The position numbers and the translations under genes were made by a program. The notes under the pieces were generated by a model. It searched no databases. It was not told the origin of the DNA and saw only the letters and a list, made by a program, of their open reading frames with translations. A DNA stretch of 64,000 bases from Janthinobacterium sp. (GTDB lineage Bacteria > Pseudomonadota > Gammaproteobacteria > Burkholderiales > Burkholderiaceae_D): the NCBI GenBank assembly GCA_003133225.1, contig PKWL01000114.1:1-64000 (forward strand). The letters are read 5' to 3'. Positions 38,185 to 49,297 of this stretch are shown here, in pieces. Within the stretch, counting starts at the first letter, position 1, and each line of letters begins with the position of its first letter.

Positions 38185-39441
38185 ATGCGCTTTATTCACG
38201 CGGCTGACATTCACCTCGATAGCCCATTGACGGGGCTATCCGCTTACCAAGATGCCCCTGCGGCCCTATTGAGGACGGCTACCCGCGATGCCTTCGAGAA
38301 TCTGGTGACCGAGGCCATCGCTGGGGCCGTCGATTTCATGGTCATTGCCGGGGATTTGTATGACGGGAATTGGAAGGATTTCAACACTGGAATTTTTTTC
38401 GTGCGCCAAATGGGGCGATTGAACTCGGCGCGCATCCCAGTCTATCTGCTGTATGGCAACCACGACGCCGAGAGCGATATGACAAAGAAGCTAACGCTAC
38501 CGGAGAATGTGCACCATTTTCCCACGGGCAAGCCAAGCACGTTCAAGTTGCCGGAACTTCGAGTAGCGCTGCATGGACGCAGCTTCAAGGAGGCGGCCAC
38601 AACCGAGAATTTGGCCGTGGGCTACCCTGATCCAGTGGCCGGTTGGTTGAACATCGGAGTGCTGCACACCGCCCTTGAAGGCAACTCTTCCCATGCCAAC
38701 TACGCACCATGTTCGATTGCTGAGCTTGAGGCTCGTCGTTACCATTACTGGGCGCTGGGGCACGTCCATGAGCACAAAATCTGGCGTGGAACTTCAACCA
38801 TCGCCTTTCCCGGCAATCTACAGGGTCGCCACATCCGTGAAGCCGGTCCGCGCGGTGCTTTGATGGTCACGGCGAACGGGATGGAAATTGAGTCGGTCGA
38901 GCGACTCTATGTGGATGTCTTACGCTGGCAAGTGCTCAATATCGATGTTTCCGCAGCATCCAATCTGGCCGATGTCGTGCGTATGACCGGCCGCGGTATC
39001 GAAGATTTGCTTGGCGATAGCCAAGGAGATATGCCGCTGGCTGTGCGGGTAATATTGTTTGGCGCTTCGGCGGCGCATGGAGAACTTTTTGGCCTCGAAG
39101 CTCAGGTGCGTGCGGAAGTCCTGGCGCAGGCTGCGAGCCTCAGCGGCGAACGCTTATGGATTGAAAAGGTCAGAATTGAAACCTCGCCGCATGACTGCGC
39201 CGAGCAAATAGCGGCCCGGTTCGATGCGCTGGCAGACCTTCAGGCTCTGCTGGCCAAGGCTGCAGCGGACTCGGGCTTTCTACAGAGCCTTCAAGACGAT
39301 TTGATGCAGCTAGTGGGGAAGTTGCCGCTTGAGGTCATCGCAACCGTGGCCCAACTCGAAGCAATCCGGTCAGGCAATGTTCAAGATCTGGTGCGCAGTA
39401 CAACGCCTTCATTGGTAGCTTACGTTGCGAAGGCAGGATAA
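38185..39441 (+). CDS. YhaO/SbcD-like DNA repair exonuclease
   Basis: The 418-residue metallophosphoesterase has all motifs: FIHAADIHLDSP (Asp8, His10), VIAGDLYDG, LLYGNHDAES, GVLHTA and WALGHVHEH. The C-terminal part (about 260-418) is helical and resembles the capping region of YhaO. SbcD/Mre11-like enzymes are Mn-dependent nucleases that process DNA ends together with an SMC-like ATPase. The partner is the next gene, which begins 3 bases after this stop. The pair corresponds to the B. subtilis yhaO-yhaN arrangement, distinct from sbcDC. Confidence 0.88.
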   Translation: MRFIHAADIHLDSPLTGLSAYQDAPAALLRTATRDAFENLVTEAIAGAVDFMVIAGDLYDGNWKDFNTGIFFVRQMGRLNSARIPVYLLYGNHDAESDMTKKLTLPENVHHFPTGKPSTFKLPELRVALHGRSFKEAATTENLAVGYPDPVAGWLNIGVLHTALEGNSSHANYAPCSIAELEARRYHYWALGHVHEHKIWRGTSTIAFPGNLQGRHIREAGPRGALMVTANGMEIESVERLYVDVLRWQVLNIDVSAASNLADVVRMTGRGIEDLLGDSQGDMPLAVRVILFGASAAHGELFGLEAQVRAEVLAQAASLSGERLWIEKVRIETSPHDCAEQIAARFDALADLQALLAKAAADSGFLQSLQDDLMQLVGKLPLEVIATVAQLEAIRSGNVQDLVRSTTPSLVAYVAKAG

Positions 39442-39444
39442 TCC

Positions 39445-42400
39445 GTGCGAATCAACCGCCTTGACCTTATTCGTTATGGAAAGTTTACCGGAACATCAGT
39501 CAAGCTGCCGTCGGCCGAACGCGACTTTCATGTCCTAATCGGGGCCAACGAAGCGGGGAAGTCGACAATTCGGTCGGCTATTTTGGACCTTTTATACGGC
39601 ATTCCCAAGAACACCATTCTTGCATTTTTGCACCCGATGCCGGATCTGCGCCTGGGCGCCTCGATCGAACATGATGGCAATACACTTGAGTTCCAGCGTA
39701 GCAAGGCGAATAAGCAAACGTTACGAACTCCTGCCGACGCCATCATGCCCGATGGTGTCCTGGGTCCGTTCGTGGGATCAACGGACCGGGATTTTTTCTC
39801 CCAGATGTTTGGCTTGGACCATGCCCGTCTTGTCGCCGGCGGTCATAGCATTCTCTCGGCCTCGGACGACCTTGGCCAAATTCTGTTTCAGTCTGCGGCG
39901 GGCATCGGAAGTCTTGGAGTGTTGCGCGAGGCTCTAGAAGAAGAGGCAGACAAGCTCTGGTCCAAAAGAAAATCTGGAGACCGTGCTTACTACGTCGCGG
40001 CCGAAGAATTAGAACGCGCCACGGCCGCGCTCAAGAGCGCCACGGTGCGGACCAAGGATTGGGTGGAGGCGCAGGCGAAGGTGCTGGAGATTGAAGGAAC
40101 TCATGCCGCTGCCAAGAAACGTCACGCGGCCATCAAGGCGCGCCGAAGCATTTTGGAGCGCGTGCGGCGGGTTGCTCAGCATCTACGTGTGCTCGACGAA
40201 GTAAATGCCCAGATAATTGAGTTGGGGGACGTGTCAGAACTGCCAGAATCAGCCTCCAAGACTTTGGCCGGTGCCGAAAGGGAATCGGCCCTCGCGCAAG
40301 CTGAGATTGACCAGTACGCCAAATTAGAACAAGAAGCGCAAACGGCGCTGGCCGCCATCGCGACCGATTATAGTATTTGTGAATTCAGCACCGAGGTGAC
40401 AGAGTTAAATGAGCGTCGTCTCCAATACCGGGCTTACGAAAGCGATATCGGCCGGCGCCAGGCAGAAGTTGATGCGCAATGGGGCATCGTAACTGGTCTC
40501 GCGGAACACCTGGGCTGGACGACTGACAGTGAAGCAGCCGTCAAGGCCCAAATGCCCAGCTTGGCGGCACGCACGGCACTGGAACGACTCATTCGCAGCC
40601 AGGCAACCTTGCAGCAGACGTTCAAGGCCGGCGAGCGCGCGGAAAGATCGAAGCTGGCTGAAATTGACAAGGCGCGAGCGACCCAGGCTAAGCTGCCCGA
40701 GGCAGCCGTCCCAACTGGTCTCCAAGCGGCGCTGGCCCGCGCCCAAAAACTTGGCGACTTCGAAGTATTCGGGTGCGCGAAACGTGATCTGGTACAGCAG
40801 AAGGAAGCGGCACTAGAGGCGGCCTATGCATCGTTGGGCAAGTGGCGAGGCGACGCGGCAGCGCTCCGCGCCATGACGACGCAATCGGCCGAGGTTATTA
40901 ACGCATTCGCGCAAGAACAGGTTTCCGGTGAAATGGAAACTAGGGCTTGCGCCACTCGGGTTCAGGCGTTGGATCGCCAAGTTGCGCAACTGCAATTGGA
41001 AATCACCCTGTTTCGCGAGAGGCACCGGCCGGTAACGCGCGCTCAGATGCTAGGCGCACGCGCAGAACGTGACTCGACCTGGTCGATTATGAGAGGAAAT
41101 GTGGGGTCGCCGTGGGCCAAAGCGGACGATTACGAAAAACTTGTCGCCGACGCTGATTTTCTCGCCGACACAAGGCATGACAAGGTGCAGCAGGCCAGTG
41201 AGCTCATGTCCAAGCAACAGCAGCTTCAACGCCTCGAACTGGAGCTCGAGGCGGCGCAAGACGATGTTCGAAAGCTTGTGGGCGCGGGTATCGCACGCGA
41301 CTTACGGTGGTCCACGCTCACCAAAGAATGCGGGTGGCCCAAAGTCTCGGTTCAAGCTGCTGTCCAATGGCTCGACACCCGAAAGACCGCGCTCGACGCG
41401 TCCGATGCCTTAGCTGAGGCAAACCGTTTGCTTTCGGCGCATGAGGCCGCCTGCGATGGGGCGCGAACTATCCTAAGCGGGGAGTTGGCCAATTTGGGAC
41501 AGGCAACGGGAGGTGAAGTTCTGGCCATTTTGGTGCTGCTAGCCGATGGCATTGTCAAGGCAATAGTTGACGCGAGTGGTCAAAGGCGCACCTTGGGCCA
41601 GCAGATCGTTGATGCTGAGCAGGCTGTCATACCCTTGATGGAAGCGGTCGTTAGTGCAAAAACTCAGCTTGAGCAATGGCAAACGGGCTGGATACAGGCA
41701 CTCCAGCTGGCAGGCTTTTCGCGCCAGGACGACTTGGGTCTGGTGGAAGGCAAGCTCGAAGTCGTGCAACAGATAGAGACGGCTTTCGCCTCTATGCGGA
41801 AGACTCGAGTTGAGCGCATCGAAACGATGCGAGCCGACTTAGACGAGTATACGTCGGCAGCGCGCATCCTGGCAGGGCGCGTTGCTCCCGACCTGACTCA
41901 GCAGACGGCCAACGATATTGCCCTTGAAATGATGGGCCGGTTAAACGCTGCCCACAGCGCGCTTGTGGAAGCGAAGCGCCAGCACGCAGCCCATGAAGCG
42001 GCCCGAAACAAAAGGCAAGACGCGGCGTTGCGCTTGCAACAGGCTCAGGCCGTTTTGGTTCCGTTGCTGGCGCGCTTGGGCGGCGTGACGAATGCAGAAT
42101 TGTCCGAGGCAATTTCCCGCTCGGATAGGCAGCGCCGTTTGCTGTTACAGGCAAATACTTCGGTAAGGGCGGTTCGCGAGGGAAGTGATGGTCTTTCCAT
42201 TGAGCAACTTCGAATCGAAGTCGATAGCGTAGACGTCACAACATTATTTATCGAGTTGGACGATTTGACAACGAAGGATGAGGAGTTCGTCAATCAGTTA
42301 AGCGAATTGTCAGTTCAAAGGCAGGTCGCCGCCGCTTCCTTGGCCATTATCGGAGGCTCGGCAGATGCGGCCAATGCCGAGGGTCAGCGCCAGGAAGCAC

Positions 42401-42900
42401 TGGCGAAGATGGCAACAGCTGTCGAGCGCTACCTGAAAGTGTATACTGCCGCGCGTCTGCTGAAATGGTCAATTGAGCAGTACCGGGAGGCAAAGCAGGG
42501 CCCGATGCTATTGTTAGCGAGCGCCATCTTCTCGCGACTCACTTTGGGTTCCTTTGAACGCTTAAGCGTCGATTTCGAGAGCGAGCCGCTAAAGCTGCAG
42601 GGGCGCCGTCCCGATGGCACGGTAGTGTCCGTCGAGGGCATGAGCGAGGGTACGCGCGACCAGCTGTATCTTTCACTACGTTTGGCGGCTTTGGACATGC
42701 ACTTGGGCCAGGCACATGTGCTTCCATTTATTGCGGACGACCTGTTCGTCAACTATGATGATTGGCGTTCAAAGGCGGGTTTGGAGGCGCTTGGCGAGCT
42801 CTCCAAGAAGACCCAGGTCATCTTCCTGACTCATCACGAGCACCTGCTGCCCCTAATGCATGAGGTTTTTGGACCCGGCGTCAACGTGGTCAAGCTCTAA
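39445..42900 (+). CDS. YhaN-like SMC-family ATPase
   Basis: The 1151-residue protein starts with GTG and has Walker A GANEAGKST at residues 33-41 after the family opening RINRLDLIRYGKFTG. Long coiled-coil segments fill residues 160-1000. The C-terminal ATPase half has the signature GMSEGTRDQLYLSLRLA (about 1065-1081), Walker B VLPFIADDLF and the H-loop LTHHEHL. No zinc-hook CXXC was seen at the centre. It should form an SbcC/Rad50-like complex with the adjacent nuclease to process DNA ends or structures. The length is typical of YhaN. Confidence 0.88.
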   Translation: MRINRLDLIRYGKFTGTSVKLPSAERDFHVLIGANEAGKSTIRSAILDLLYGIPKNTILAFLHPMPDLRLGASIEHDGNTLEFQRSKANKQTLRTPADAIMPDGVLGPFVGSTDRDFFSQMFGLDHARLVAGGHSILSASDDLGQILFQSAAGIGSLGVLREALEEEADKLWSKRKSGDRAYYVAAEELERATAALKSATVRTKDWVEAQAKVLEIEGTHAAAKKRHAAIKARRSILERVRRVAQHLRVLDEVNAQIIELGDVSELPESASKTLAGAERESALAQAEIDQYAKLEQEAQTALAAIATDYSICEFSTEVTELNERRLQYRAYESDIGRRQAEVDAQWGIVTGLAEHLGWTTDSEAAVKAQMPSLAARTALERLIRSQATLQQTFKAGERAERSKLAEIDKARATQAKLPEAAVPTGLQAALARAQKLGDFEVFGCAKRDLVQQKEAALEAAYASLGKWRGDAAALRAMTTQSAEVINAFAQEQVSGEMETRACATRVQALDRQVAQLQLEITLFRERHRPVTRAQMLGARAERDSTWSIMRGNVGSPWAKADDYEKLVADADFLADTRHDKVQQASELMSKQQQLQRLELELEAAQDDVRKLVGAGIARDLRWSTLTKECGWPKVSVQAAVQWLDTRKTALDASDALAEANRLLSAHEAACDGARTILSGELANLGQATGGEVLAILVLLADGIVKAIVDASGQRRTLGQQIVDAEQAVIPLMEAVVSAKTQLEQWQTGWIQALQLAGFSRQDDLGLVEGKLEVVQQIETAFASMRKTRVERIETMRADLDEYTSAARILAGRVAPDLTQQTANDIALEMMGRLNAAHSALVEAKRQHAAHEAARNKRQDAALRLQQAQAVLVPLLARLGGVTNAELSEAISRSDRQRRLLLQANTSVRAVREGSDGLSIEQLRIEVDSVDVTTLFIELDDLTTKDEEFVNQLSELSVQRQVAAASLAIIGGSADAANAEGQRQEALAKMATAVERYLKVYTAARLLKWSIEQYREAKQGPMLLLASAIFSRLTLGSFERLSVDFESEPLKLQGRRPDGTVVSVEGMSEGTRDQLYLSLRLAALDMHLGQAHVLPFIADDLFVNYDDWRSKAGLEALGELSKKTQVIFLTHHEHLLPLMHEVFGPGVNVVKL

Positions 42901-43196
42901 TACGGGCTGGAGTGTGACAAGTGAAAGTGTGACAAGGGGCGGTGAGACGGTATGTTGACCGACGCGCAGGCCCCAACTGCCGTTGCCGGGTGCCGTTGCA
43001 ACGGAATTTTTGACTTGATGGTCCCGCATCTTGTTTAATTTCTAACGGATGGCATGGCAATAACAAGTGTTCCCATGTATGGTAATTCGCGTCATAGATT
43101 GAGATAATGCCTCTTTCTCTTCCCAGCGCTTGGCTAAATAGGCCCGCACAGCAACAGCTGCGACGTGTGCCGCTTGACCTAGTGCTGACACACACA

Positions 43197-43940
43197 ATGA
43201 CTTTTTCATGCCCTGCAGCAACCATCCGGGAAGCGGCGCTTCTTCTCCGGAGAGCAAACCGCATCCTTGTCCTGTCCGGTGCCGGCTTGTCGAAGGCCTC
43301 CGGCATCCCAACCTATCGTGATTCCGGTGGACTTTGGGTAACGGGGGATAATCTCAAATATTCCCACATCGACGCGTATCGGGAAGACCCGGTGTCTTTT
43401 TCCGAATTTTGGGCCGCGCGGCGCAAGGAAATTTCCTTTGCAAGGCCAAATGCCGCCCATTTAGCGCTGAAGCAGCTTCAAAAAATCAAGCCAGAAACGC
43501 TGCTTGTCACCCAGAATATCGACGGCCTCTTGCAGCAGGCGGGCTGTGACGGGGTGCTGGAGCTGCACGGCAATTTGCTGTCCTCCCGCTGCGGTAGTTG
43601 TGGCTTGCCCGATCCTGGGGCGCTGGGCGACATATGTCGCCGCTGTTTTTCACCCATGCGGCCAGATGTCGTGTTGTTTGGCGAACCGTTGCCGGAACAA
43701 GCGCTGTTTCTTGCCGAGATGGGTGCAAGCCGGTGTGACGTGATTTTGGTCGTCGGAACCACGGCCGCCGTCTATCCGGCCGCCGAGTTACCGCGCATCG
43801 CGACCCGCTGCGCAGCCAAACTCATCTTGATGGATGTCGAGCCACCTTTACTGGCGCGTGCGGCCGATGTCGTACTTGTAGGAAAAGCTGAAGAGCTCTT
43901 GCCGGCACTCGTTCGGGCAGTTCTTGAGAATTTCGCGTGA
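43197..43940 (+). CDS. SIR2 family NAD-dependent protein deacylase
   Basis: The 247-residue protein (ATG 43197) has GAGLSKASGIPTYRD (NAD site, residues 28-42), TQNIDGLLQQAG and the catalytic His in ELHGNL. Four zinc-ligand Cys follow in SRCGSCG and DICRRC, then RPDVVLFGE and VGTTAAVYPAAELP. All elements of a class III/bacterial sirtuin are present, so it should deacylate lysines using NAD+. ATG 43107 would add 30 residues of doubtful origin. It lies 296 bases after the yhaO-yhaN pair on the same strand. A functional link is possible but unproven. Confidence 0.88.
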   Translation: MTFSCPAATIREAALLLRRANRILVLSGAGLSKASGIPTYRDSGGLWVTGDNLKYSHIDAYREDPVSFSEFWAARRKEISFARPNAAHLALKQLQKIKPETLLVTQNIDGLLQQAGCDGVLELHGNLLSSRCGSCGLPDPGALGDICRRCFSPMRPDVVLFGEPLPEQALFLAEMGASRCDVILVVGTTAAVYPAAELPRIATRCAAKLILMDVEPPLLARAADVVLVGKAEELLPALVRAVLENFA

Positions 43941-45669: not shown

Positions 45670-46558
45670 GTACGACCGGCATTCCTTAATGAAGTTGGCG
45701 CTTCGAGATTTGGCAAATCCCTTGGAGATCCGCGGCAGCGAGCCAGCGCTTCGCGAGTCGGCCTGGCGCAGTTCCTGCCCTGACGAGCCGGCCGGGCGCA
45801 GCGTATGCGCTGTAAACCGCCTGCTCGCTATGTTTTGACGCGACTTACCTGTGCCCGACCGCCCTCCAGATTGCTGGCGCCGGCGCCGCTTTTTCAGTAG
45901 CCGCCTTAAGCCGCGAACCCGAATCTTATGTTTTGTCGAATCGATGCCAATTGTCGTCATCGGCCCGCGCTCTCTTGGGAAAATGGGGGGCATCTCCCTA
46001 GGCGCTTAAGTGCTCTTTAGAAGGGCGGGCCGCCGTTTATTAAGGTTCTGGCCCATCATGCGGCCTCATTTGGTCGTGGGGTGCAAACTAAGGCTCCTAG
46101 CTCGGCTCTCGGCACGTTCGGTTGCGCGATTGGGGGGCGCCGCCAGCACCGGCTTGCACGCTCGCCAGCCCTATGTCCTGAAGCAACAATGGGGGACCTC
46201 GAGGCGATTTGCTCAACATGAGCTAACACCTTGTTACATTGTTGGCGTTCCGTGCGCACGGTCCGTGCTAAGGTAGTCGACATGTCTCCCTATGGCTCGG
46301 GCCGGTGTTGCCGGTGCGCATTGGCTAGGGGCAAACACCACTTTGGAAAGCGTTTAACGAACTGGTGCTGGCAGCGAATCGTCACCACTGAGTCCACATC
46401 TATTGGCGCTGAAGGCCGTGCGGTTGGCGCCGGTAATTATTTCCAAATACATTGAAACCAACGTACATGGGAGAGTCTATTTTCTTCAGGTTGATGGGGC
46501 CGGCCACGGCACACTCCCCTGAACAGCTTGCCCCCATTTAACACGGAAGGAAACTCCC
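45670..46558. other. gene-free 0.9 kb upstream of the second ftsZ
   Basis: No intact gene was found. On the minus strand an ATG at 45957 begins MTTIGIDSTKHKIRVRGL, which resembles the start of IS110-type transposases, but the similarity ends after about 17 residues, so at most a fragment remains. CCGTGCGCACGG (46250-46261) is a 12-bp perfect palindrome. AAGGAA (46545-46551 region) is the ribosome binding site for the TTG start of ftsZ. No strong promoter pair was seen. Confidence 0.4.
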
Positions 46559-47737
46559 TTGTCTGATCCGAAGAACGCGCAGTGCGAGACTGTGATTAAA
46601 GTAATTGGTGTGGGCGGCGCTGGCGGTAATGCCGTCACCCACATGGTGTCGTCAGGTTTGTCCGACGTCGAATTTATCTGCGCCAATACAGACGCGCAAG
46701 CTCTTTCAAAAACGGGTGCCGCAACAAAAATTCAACTCGGCGAAACCGGACTGGGCGCGGGAAGCGTCCCCGAAGTCGGCCGCGAAACCGCAATCCGAGA
46801 GCGTACGAGCATTGCGGACGCGCTGAAGGGCGCGCACATGGTTTTCATCACGGCTGGCATGGGCGGCGGCACCGGAACGGGCGCGGCTCCCGTCGTGGCG
46901 GAAGTAGCCAAGGAAATGGGTATTTTGACCGTCGGGGTCGTCTCGAAGCCTTTTGAGTTTGAAGGCGCCCGCCGTATGCGCGTGGCCGATGAAGGAATCG
47001 AAAATTTGTCGAAGTCCGTCGATTCGCTCATTATTGTCCTAAATAGCCGTCTGGAAGAGGTTTTGGGTGATGACATCACCCAAAAACAAGCCTTTAGCGC
47101 CGCTGATGACGTACTTAGCAAAGCCGTATCTGGCATATCGGAAATCATCAACGTACCCGGTATGATTAATGTGGATTTCCAAGACGTGCGCACCGTGATG
47201 CGCGAAATGGGAACGGCAGTCATGGGCACCGCAACGCACTCGGGCGACGACCGCGCCATTAATGCAGCCCAAGAGGCAATTTCTTGTCCGCTGCTAGATG
47301 GCTTGAGCCTGCATGGCGCCCGCGGATTGTTGGTGAACATTGCCGCATCCGAGGAAACATTGAAACTGCGCGAAACCAAACAGGTGATGAATCTCATCTG
47401 TTCGCATACGAGCGACGATGCCATCATCAAATTTGGCGCAGTATACGACGAGTCGCTCGGCGATGCCATGCGTATAACCGTCGTCGCGACGGGGTTGTCG
47501 CTGCCACGGGGCGTTGGGCCGGGACCGGTGCAGCCGTATCAATCGAGAACGGCTGCTGCTGGCATCAGCCGGGGCCGAAATTCGGGAAGCCCAGTTCGCG
47601 GCGCTAGCGCAAAGGAGATCCCTTTGCTTTTTGGCCAGCGCCCGAGCAATTCTGCTGATCCCCTGGCAGGCCCAGCACCAAAAATTGTGCCTGCGCCGCC
47701 CCAGTCTGCTTCAAATAGCGAGCACGGCAAAAATTAG
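46559..47737 (+). CDS. ftsZ: FtsZ paralogue outside the division cluster
   Basis: The 392-residue protein is a full FtsZ GTPase core: KVIGVGGAGGNAVTHMV, the tubulin signature AGMGGGTGTGAAPVVAE (residues 99-115), PFEFEGARRM, INVPGMINVDFQDVRTVM (T7 loop with Asp206 and Asp209) and ATHSGDDRAINAA. Polymerisation and GTP hydrolysis residues appear intact. The C-terminus is unusual: it ends in SEHGKN and lacks the DIPAFLRKQAD-like peptide that binds FtsA and other partners. Only a degenerate AKEIPLLFGQR is seen at 351-361. There is no mur, ftsQ or ftsA gene near it, so this is a second, orphan copy. The TTG start follows AAGGAA. Confidence 0.9.
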   Translation: MSDPKNAQCETVIKVIGVGGAGGNAVTHMVSSGLSDVEFICANTDAQALSKTGAATKIQLGETGLGAGSVPEVGRETAIRERTSIADALKGAHMVFITAGMGGGTGTGAAPVVAEVAKEMGILTVGVVSKPFEFEGARRMRVADEGIENLSKSVDSLIIVLNSRLEEVLGDDITQKQAFSAADDVLSKAVSGISEIINVPGMINVDFQDVRTVMREMGTAVMGTATHSGDDRAINAAQEAISCPLLDGLSLHGARGLLVNIAASEETLKLRETKQVMNLICSHTSDDAIIKFGAVYDESLGDAMRITVVATGLSLPRGVGPGPVQPYQSRTAAAGISRGRNSGSPVRGASAKEIPLLFGQRPSNSADPLAGPAPKIVPAPPQSASNSEHGKN

Positions 47738-47891
47738 GGACCAGTTTCTTCGCCGTTGTCGGGCAAACCCCGATGGTCACCGCAAAACGCGACCCGACGG
47801 AGCTACCATTATGGTCTGCCGTTGCGCGCGCCCAGCTCGATCTTGGGCGCGATTTGGTGAGCAACTGGCCAAATTTGATTACAATTGCACG

Positions 47892-48481
47892 ATGAATACA
47901 GCTAACCGTTTGAAAGGTGGCCTGGACGGTCTGCTAATCGGCGCCGCCTTAGGTGTGGAAATGGTTCCCTGATGCGCGCGCTTCCGCTGGCCTTGTGGCA
48001 TCGAGGAAGCGATGAAGAACTGGTCGGGCTGGCACACGCCCAATCCTTGTTGACCCATGGCCATGTGTATTCCCAGGTTTGTTGCGGCTTCTACGTTCTG
48101 GCCGCAAGGCGCTGGTTGGAAGGAAAAAAATGAATGAGGCATGAGACTGCACAAAAGAGGACTTGGCCACGCTGTATGCCAATTTACTCTTTGCGCCGGC
48201 GCTCGATTTTGTTTTATCCGTGAAGCCGGATAAACTGCAAGGGTCGGGTTATGTCGTAGACAGCCTCTGGTCGGCCAAAAGTGCTTGCCAAGAATCGACC
48301 TTCGCGGCGTTGTGAAAGCGGCGATGGCGCTTGGCGAGGACTCCGATACGACCGCCTGCATTGCCGGGGGCCTCGCCCGTATTCATTTCGGATTGATTCC
48401 ATCCCGTTGCGCTGGATGGATATTTTGCGCGGAAGAGAGCTGGTAAAGCCCCTTGAAAAATCGCTCCTTCTCGGAGTCTGA
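47892..48481 (+). pseudogene. ADP-ribosylglycohydrolase (DraG family), decayed
   Basis: Several out-of-phase pieces form one ADP-ribosylglycohydrolase. They are MNTANRLKGGLDGLLIGAAL (47892-47972), RALPLALWHRGSDEELVGLA then HAQSLLTHGHVYSQVCC (47972-48133), DKLQGSGYVVDSLWSAKSAC, the metal-site segment MALGEDSDTTACIAGGLARI, and DSIPLRWMDILRGRELVKPL. Frames change at least three times, and part of the N-terminal half between pieces one and two is deleted, so the gene is dead. Such enzymes remove ADP-ribose from proteins using two Mg2+ ions. It starts 154 bases after the ftsZ paralogue. Confidence 0.88.
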
Positions 48482-48682
48482 CACGGCCAGATGTGGCGTA
48501 GTGCCGAGGTGGCCATTTTGCCAAGGTTGGGTGTGCCTTCGGCAACAACGGTGAACCTGGCATTTGAGGCCCAGGCGAATTGTTCCAAAAAATACCAACA
48601 GCGAAAGCAGGCGATACTGAAAAACGGGTGCTGCGCCCGCATTCGTCTGCCAACCACGATGGCTTGCCAATTTGAGGAAAAA

Positions 48683-49297
48683 ATGAAACAGCTAAGTTTA
48701 TCTTGGATTTTATTGCTGGCACTATTTCTGAGTGCCAGCAGTTTTGCTGACGAAACCATCGTGCTGGTGCGCCATGGCGAGAAACCGACTTCCGGGCTTG
48801 GACAGCTTAGCTGCCAAGGCTTTAACCGGGCCCTGGCGTTGACCAACGTCTTGCAAAAAAGATTTGATAGGCCCACTGCTATTTTTGCGCCCAATCCAGG
48901 AGTTCTCAAAAACGACCAAGGCCAAGTCTACAATTACGTCCGCCCCCTTGCCACGATTGAGCCCACGGCAATTGCCTTAGGCCTTCCCGTAGATACGCAA
49001 TATGGCTTCGAGGACATCAAACATTTGCAAGAAGCATTGGCGTCCCCCGCGTACAAAGACGCGACTATTTTCGTTGCTTGGGAGCATAGGCTGCTCGAGC
49101 AAGTCACGCGCAACCTGATCTCGGCAAATGGGGGCGACCCTGATGTCGTGCCGGTATGGACTGATTACGATTTTGACAGTATTTACATCGTTAGCCTTAA
49201 ATCAGACAGGGACGGCCGCCGCACTGCCACGTTCAAACTGGATTTCGAGAGGCTAAATCGGATGCCCACGGCATGTCCGGGACAACCGGCGATTTAG
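48683..49297 (+). CDS. exported histidine phosphatase family protein
   Basis: The 204-residue protein starts at ATG 48683, with GAGGA about 5 bases upstream, and has a signal peptide (WILLLALFLSASSFA-DE). The catalytic motif IVLVRHGEKP follows immediately, with the nucleophilic His. A later VAWEHRLLEQ carries the second active-site His typical of branch 1 phosphatases, and RPLATIEPTAIAL supplies a helical cap. The periplasmic substrate is unknown. A longer frame to 48491 overlaps the pseudogene end and is not translated. Confidence 0.8.
   Translation: MKQLSLSWILLLALFLSASSFADETIVLVRHGEKPTSGLGQLSCQGFNRALALTNVLQKRFDRPTAIFAPNPGVLKNDQGQVYNYVRPLATIEPTAIALGLPVDTQYGFEDIKHLQEALASPAYKDATIFVAWEHRLLEQVTRNLISANGGDPDVVPVWTDYDFDSIYIVSLKSDRDGRRTATFKLDFERLNRMPTACPGQPAI

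Follow-up and report, generated by a model that had tools for sequence, protein, structure and literature searches.

A second FtsZ without a C-terminal partner-binding peptide in a Janthinobacterium genome and its relatives

Most bacteria divide with one FtsZ, and the canonical protein binds FtsA, ZipA and MinC through a C-terminal partner-binding peptide (CTP). A contig of Janthinobacterium sp. (PKWL01000114.1, assembly GCA_003133225.1) carries a gene, here called ftsZ2, for an FtsZ-like protein that ends without this peptide. The gene lies within the stretch of 64,000 nucleotides that was analysed (the window). It raises the questions of whether the protein is a true second FtsZ or the remnant of one, where it comes from, and what a bacterium might gain from an FtsZ that the usual partners presumably cannot recognise. 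The features of the gene are as follows.

46545..46553, + strand: ribosome-binding-site-like GGAAGGAAA 5' of the TTG, based on the sequence and a 30-row upstream alignment
46559..47737, + strand: ftsZ2, an accessory FtsZ of 392 aa that lacks the C-terminal peptide; begins with TTG, coordinates include the stop codon (TAG)
46589..47497, + strand: conserved core of GTPase and C-terminal domain, residues 11-313 approximately, under purifying selection, based on Pfam spans and dN/dS
47168..47185, + strand: T7 catalytic loop N204-x-D206-x-x-D209, invariant or nearly invariant alignment columns
47498..47734, + strand: variable Arg/Pro-rich tail of 79 residues without the DIPAFL peptide

The locus and its surroundings

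The genome of the window (5.74 Mb in 158 contigs, 98.4% complete, 2.7% contamination) contains two matches to PF00091, namely ftsZ2 and a canonical ftsZ. The canonical gene, on contig C116, adjoins ftsA (Pfam FtsA, 169 bits), and its product ends in DIPAFLRKQAD; FtsZ2 is 62% identical to it over residues 6-315. In the window, ftsZ2 is not beside ftsA and lies outside the division cluster. The first-pass annotation, made from the window alone, had described an orphan second FtsZ away from the division cluster and had suggested a search for the dcw copy. The gene beside ftsA bears this description out, and the possibility that the genome has no other ftsZ falls away. A canonical FtsZ ending in DIPAFLRKQAD is present in all 30 carrier genomes searched for one.

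Only one of 40 genomes in the window's genus carries ftsZ2, and apart from a few short pieces at other sites, the local window DNA is matched in its genus mates only by their canonical ftsZ. These two findings prompted a consideration of contamination. This was ruled out by gyrA on the same contig: at E <= 1e-200 the genome has no other gyrA match, and the gene is 93-95% identical to that of seven genus mates. The gene order gph, ubiG, ompA, gyrA is kept in the seven relatives inspected, with ssrA adjoining in the six scanned, and the GC content of the window (0.576) compares with 0.52-0.63 in nine stretches of the genome's other contigs, a tenth stretch (L239) consisting of N. The ftsZ2 locus is native chromosome in a variable region.

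This region spans 24 kb (32911-56672), from pncB to ssrA, the tmRNA gene, with ftsZ2 inside it. The matching interval in one relative (G002) measures about 13 kb and contains none of the 15 window genes of the stretch by tblastn. The ssrA gene is a common integration spot, and the variable stretch may mark a hotspot near its 3' end. Integration at ssrA is not claimed here; the interval is variable, but a search for an att-like repeat of the ssrA 3' end found none. Within the stretch, a calcineurin-like phosphoesterase and a large AAA_27 protein (38185-42900), a pair that presumably resembles SbcD/SbcC, stand beside a Sir2-family deacetylase (43107-43940). For the genes at 38185-43940, PADLOC returned only weak matches, to the AAA protein. 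An ADP-ribosylglycohydrolase gene that is broken (47854-48490) follows ftsZ2 directly on its 3' side. The genome has a longer, open copy of it on contig C86 (L236 8460-9506; ADP_ribosyl_GH, 231.8 bits), and the two are 82% identical in DNA over 526 bases.

A survey of the neighbours at 29 ftsZ2 loci, in which the script called ftsZ2 itself in 28, found no shared family in more than six loci and no widely shared operon partner. An upstream element, situated about 115-150 bases before the start, is common to the ftsZ2 loci of one genus. In that genus (g18), it takes the form TTACAAATGNTTNCGANTGNAACGTTT (for example in L270, L271 and L272), with a GTTTC-GATT-GAAAC palindrome in some copies; it is only faintly visible upstream of the window gene. 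A 27-base pattern of the element, with up to three mismatches allowed, has a single match, upstream of ftsZ2, in each of three of the four genomes scanned; neither the fourth genome (G171) nor the reversed control gave a match.

A conserved core and a tail without the peptide

In Pfam, FtsZ2 hits Tubulin with 146 bits and FtsZ_C with 92.5 bits. It scores 375.5 bits against the NCBIfam ftsZ equivalog TIGR00065 (cut-off 295.2), compared with 367.4 bits for the canonical copy. The closest solved structures by sequence are bacterial FtsZ proteins, the best being 2vaw_A (3.8e-101). With the GTP-binding motif GGGTGTG and the T7-loop residues N204, D206 and D209 in place, the protein can be classed as an FtsZ on its equivalog score and motifs.

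The core is well preserved across the family of 33 paralogues, the window copy among them. In 55 canonical FtsZ proteins, 137 positions are at least 95% conserved, and 126 of these are retained in half or more of the paralogues; the remaining 11 are altered in most of them, including R281C in all 33. Because the paralogue core keeps these conserved residues, it reads as a conservative FtsZ, not a degenerate one. Across the 14 closest among 435 pairs of genomes, dN/dS is 0.050-0.141 for the paralogues and 0.010-0.080 for the canonical copies, and the window gene gives 0.036-0.064 against four relatives, at a dS of 1.4-2.0 that is near saturation. These ratios indicate purifying selection on the ftsZ2 core. 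Its mean pairwise identity is 0.863, versus 0.927 for the canonical copies of the same 30 genomes.

Paralogues and canonical copies share a conserved residue in 140 of 316 core columns, whereas 37 are conserved but different, a fixed difference being a column in which each group is at least 95% conserved. Ten of the 37 fall at residues 163-188 and ten at 270-300, stretches that we take to lie near the longitudinal interface. Residue 291 is K in 33/33 paralogues, A in 33/33 canonical copies and I in 20/21 other betaproteobacteria; alignment to a Salmonella FtsZ places it at V293 of E. coli FtsZ, which is described as sitting on the longitudinal subunit interface (PMC4603965). In view of these fixed differences, the interfaces of FtsZ2 and the main FtsZ may have diverged. 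Measured against other betaproteobacteria, the paralogues have 12 fixed changes, one of which is the first residue and has little meaning, and the canonical copies have 22, with four positions in both lists. The resident FtsZ of this bacterial family (L142-L171) has thus itself changed at more betaproteobacteria-conserved positions than the paralogue.

The tail presents a different picture. It comprises 79 residues in the window protein, with nine K+R against three D+E, and ends in SEHGKN with no DIPAFL. No member of the family (0/33) contains [DE]IP[AST]FL. A CTP hidden by a frameshift, which had been named as a possible artefact, was sought in three frames of 47481-48700, where the best 12-mer scores 9, compared with 63 for the canonical peptide against itself. 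The missing peptide is therefore a real feature of the protein, as had been supposed. What does not survive is the idea of a degenerate peptide remnant at AKEIPLLFGQR. This site lies in a variable linker in which relatives carry other letters, and EIPLLFGQR has a CTP score of 12, which is reached by 38% of 500 shuffles of the same tail and thus stands at chance level. When the 33 paralogue tails were compared with 14 canonical tails by best ungapped 10-mers, none of the matches fell on the CTP, and most scores were at shuffle level. In a direct test for the CTP, the shuffle fraction was below 0.05 in four of the 33 tails and below 0.01 in two (L041 and L042). These two end in PAVLRQTA[SP], resembling PAFLRKQAD (0 and 2 of 500 shuffles) without the DI, so a worn CTP is possible in a few relatives, L041 and L042 among them. 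The 29 full tails measured are 43-92 residues long and poorly conserved in sequence. In one genome (G382), no stop codon follows the tail of the paralogue, whose frame stays open up to the end of the locus (L061 1498-3996, 1287 codons); the stretch downstream of the tail presumably resembles DNA polymerase II, and this sequence was trimmed before tree building.

The start codon is equally characteristic of the family. In the window gene, the next possible starts in the same frame are two GTG codons (residues 12 and 18) and an ATG (residue 29). Since a start at residue 29 would remove the first GTP-binding loop, the TTG start is credible. All 33 members start with TTG when the codon nearest the aligned start is picked among ATG, GTG and TTG; the ATG of the canonical rows is an unfair contrast, the script having permitted only ATG or GTG there. 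A GGAG lies within 20 bases upstream of the start in 29 of 30 ftsZ2 copies, and the window copy has AGGAAA instead. The complete GTPase core and the TTG start noted on first inspection are thus upheld by the intact motifs, the equivalog score and the family-wide TTG. A terminator-like hairpin followed by TTTTT (47609-47627) lies within the ftsZ2 frame, some 110 bases short of its stop codon; a scan for such hairpin and T-run sites found three, with 4.1 expected by chance.

Distribution and descent

In the bacterial family, 38 of 392 genomes match at E <= 1e-118. Thirty of them, the window genome included, score at least 485 bits, and the eight at 399-420 bits are taken as canonical FtsZ by score alone. 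By genus, carriage amounts to 1/40 (the window's own genus, its genome included), 4/5, 20/62 (g18), 5/74 and 3/17, a total of 33 of 198 genomes in five genera. When GTDB contigs were scanned with a pattern for close relatives, nine copies appeared, in Massilia, Rugamonas, Pseudoduganella and one Pseudomonadota bin, all of which fall within the 33. Sampling 399 genomes across the order gave 15 with a match at E <= 1e-122. Besides the window genome and G049 there were 13, and since the matches in all of these 13 end in a [DE]IP[AS]FLR peptide, they are canonical.

In a tree of 94 rows, the 33 paralogues form one clade (100/100) and 34 canonical FtsZ proteins of the same family form another (100/100). 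The window copy is the first branch within the paralogue clade. This clade joins the canonical FtsZ of Ichthyocystis (100/98), but both branches are long and the placement is unsure. A union of the paralogues with the canonical copies is rejected (p-AU 0.0098), with the same long-branch caution. By this phylogeny, FtsZ2 is a lineage of its own and not a decayed copy of the resident FtsZ. Paralogue identities partly track the canonical identities of the same genomes (Spearman 0.40, 435 genome pairs), a correlation that suggests ancient vertical descent accompanied by many losses and occasional transfer. Judged from its patchy carriage, the function of ftsZ2 is dispensable.

Possible roles of a second FtsZ

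The reading preferred here, with a probability of roughly 0.4, is that FtsZ2 has an accessory role, in which it would assemble together with the main FtsZ and alter tethering or turnover without replacing it. FtsZ2 would be made at a low level from its TTG start and would use the longitudinal interface to enter or cap the filaments that the main FtsZ forms. Because a subunit without the CTP would be unable to bind FtsA, ZipA or MinC, such filaments would carry fewer membrane tethers and regulator sites. The lower tether density and the changed filament turnover might then tune Z-ring dynamics under some condition. This proposal is consistent with the intact GTP-binding and T7 motifs, the conserved positions retained (126 of 137), the low dN/dS, the absence of the CTP from all 33 members and the presence of a CTP-bearing FtsZ in 30 of 30 carriers, and it has a precedent in chloroplast FtsZ1 (PMC12343686). 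Against it stand an identity of only 62% between the two proteins, the 37 fixed differences in 316 core columns, the K in place of A at residue 291 on the longitudinal interface, and the patchy carriage.

The same differences fit a strong rival, namely that FtsZ2 builds its own, unmixed filaments with a different partner and task, for instance in shaping the cell, at an internal membrane or during a special growth phase, and that its tail is a new binding sequence. This is a tentative reading. It would explain why the clade does not derive from the resident FtsZ (union rejected at p-AU 0.0098) and why 20 of the fixed differences gather in two stretches, with residue 291 on the interface; a basic Pro/Arg-rich tail, whose end appears RQ.AS-like in several members, and an upstream element found solely at ftsZ2 in three of four genomes would suit it as well. 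However, no conserved neighbour offers itself as a partner, since no family recurs in more than six of the 29 loci; tails of such variable length and sequence are unlike a partner-binding end, and the core motifs are still canonical. The lack of a shared neighbour weighs equally on the improbable alternative that FtsZ2 is a conditional division inhibitor or decoy, which when induced would poison or sequester the main FtsZ and delay division. Without a CTP, FtsZ2 presumably cannot recruit the divisome, its TTG start suggests low basal expression, and the conserved upstream element suggests control in one genus, all of which would be in keeping with such a role; a poison subunit would nevertheless have no need of the catalytic residues that are kept throughout the family.

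That ftsZ2 is a relic, a transferred or duplicated FtsZ in decay, might be read from its patchy carriage (33/198), its variable tails, the L061 tail that continues into a downstream reading frame, and the broken ADP-ribosylglycohydrolase copy next to it in the window. This reading is disfavoured and has a slim chance at best, as purifying selection acts on an open core in both the window copy and the closest pairs, and the TTG is kept in 33/33. A phage, plasmid or defence gene, a context raised by the first-pass annotation, would agree with a position inside the 24-kb variable stretch adjoining ssrA. The neighbours differ between genomes and the ssrA 3' end is not repeated; moreover, two pattern scans of viral contigs found no close FtsZ2 relatives, phage and plasmid records reach at most 60.3% identity and resemble ordinary FtsZ, and PADLOC gave no match for the protein. 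The phage, plasmid or defence reading is therefore largely refuted and very improbable.

Co-assembly with the main FtsZ can be set beside several known systems. Chloroplast FtsZ1 is reported to have a C-terminal amphiphilic membrane motif. Like FtsZ2 here, it and red-algal FtsZB are second FtsZ proteins without a defined CTP beside a CTP-bearing one, and FtsZ1 is reported to coassemble with chloroplast FtsZ2 and to raise its turnover (PMC12343686). The chloroplast pair, although of a different lineage origin and with a coassembly that is known there and proposed here from sequence, may be regarded as the best-documented parallel. FtsZm of Magnetospirillum is not known to carry a CTP either. 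It likewise is an accessory FtsZ beside a generic homologue in a proteobacterium, and ftsZm mutants are described as defective only under some growth conditions (PMC7017999, PMC8547445). Magnetospirillum ftsZm belongs to the mamXY magnetosome operon and is co-transcribed with mamX and mamZ, whereas ftsZ2 has no shared partner; Pfam scans of thirteen window proteins, FtsZ2 included, named no magnetosome family, and the two nearest neighbours match no Pfam.

The alphaproteobacterial cases are set beside FtsZ2 by description. Agrobacterium is reported to have three FtsZ homologues, of which one is essential and is the sole one with a linker and CTP (PMC13170164), and S. meliloti has ftsZ1 and ftsZ2 (PMC4414408); FtsZ rows from Rhizobium and Sinorhizobium plasmids are 47-53% identical to the window FtsZ2. 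FtsZl1 and FtsZl2, described in 2010 as additional members of the FtsZ superfamily in proteobacteria (PMC2875224), are remote homologues, FtsZl2 having a C-terminal region of about 300 aa, whereas FtsZ2 is a close FtsZ with a 79-aa tail. With canonical betaproteobacterial FtsZ (TIGR00065), FtsZ2 has the GTPase core, T7 loop and FtsZ_C in common, but it differs in its missing CTP, its TTG start, its location outside the dcw cluster and its separate clade. According to a survey of FtsZ evolution, few bacteria have two copies, and in these the additional FtsZ is located outside the dcw cluster and is perhaps subfunctionalised (PMC9871819). A search of titles and abstract openings in the open-licence literature found no description of the FtsZ2 family, which is weak evidence that it is a previously undescribed family within a known kind, the CTP-less accessory FtsZ beside a complete one.

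A wider version of the co-assembly proposal, which is speculative and rather unlikely in full, would be a Massilia-type lineage with a two-FtsZ ring. In such a lineage, a CTP-less FtsZ would have been kept since before the genera split, expressed from its own promoter, and would form mixed filaments that set turnover, as a free-living counterpart of chloroplast FtsZ1 and FtsZ2. The family places a CTP-less FtsZ in named, sequenced isolates, while it is absent from 42 of 62 congeners in one genus. With these natural carriers and non-carriers, the contributions of the peptide and of a second FtsZ to ring dynamics could be tested.
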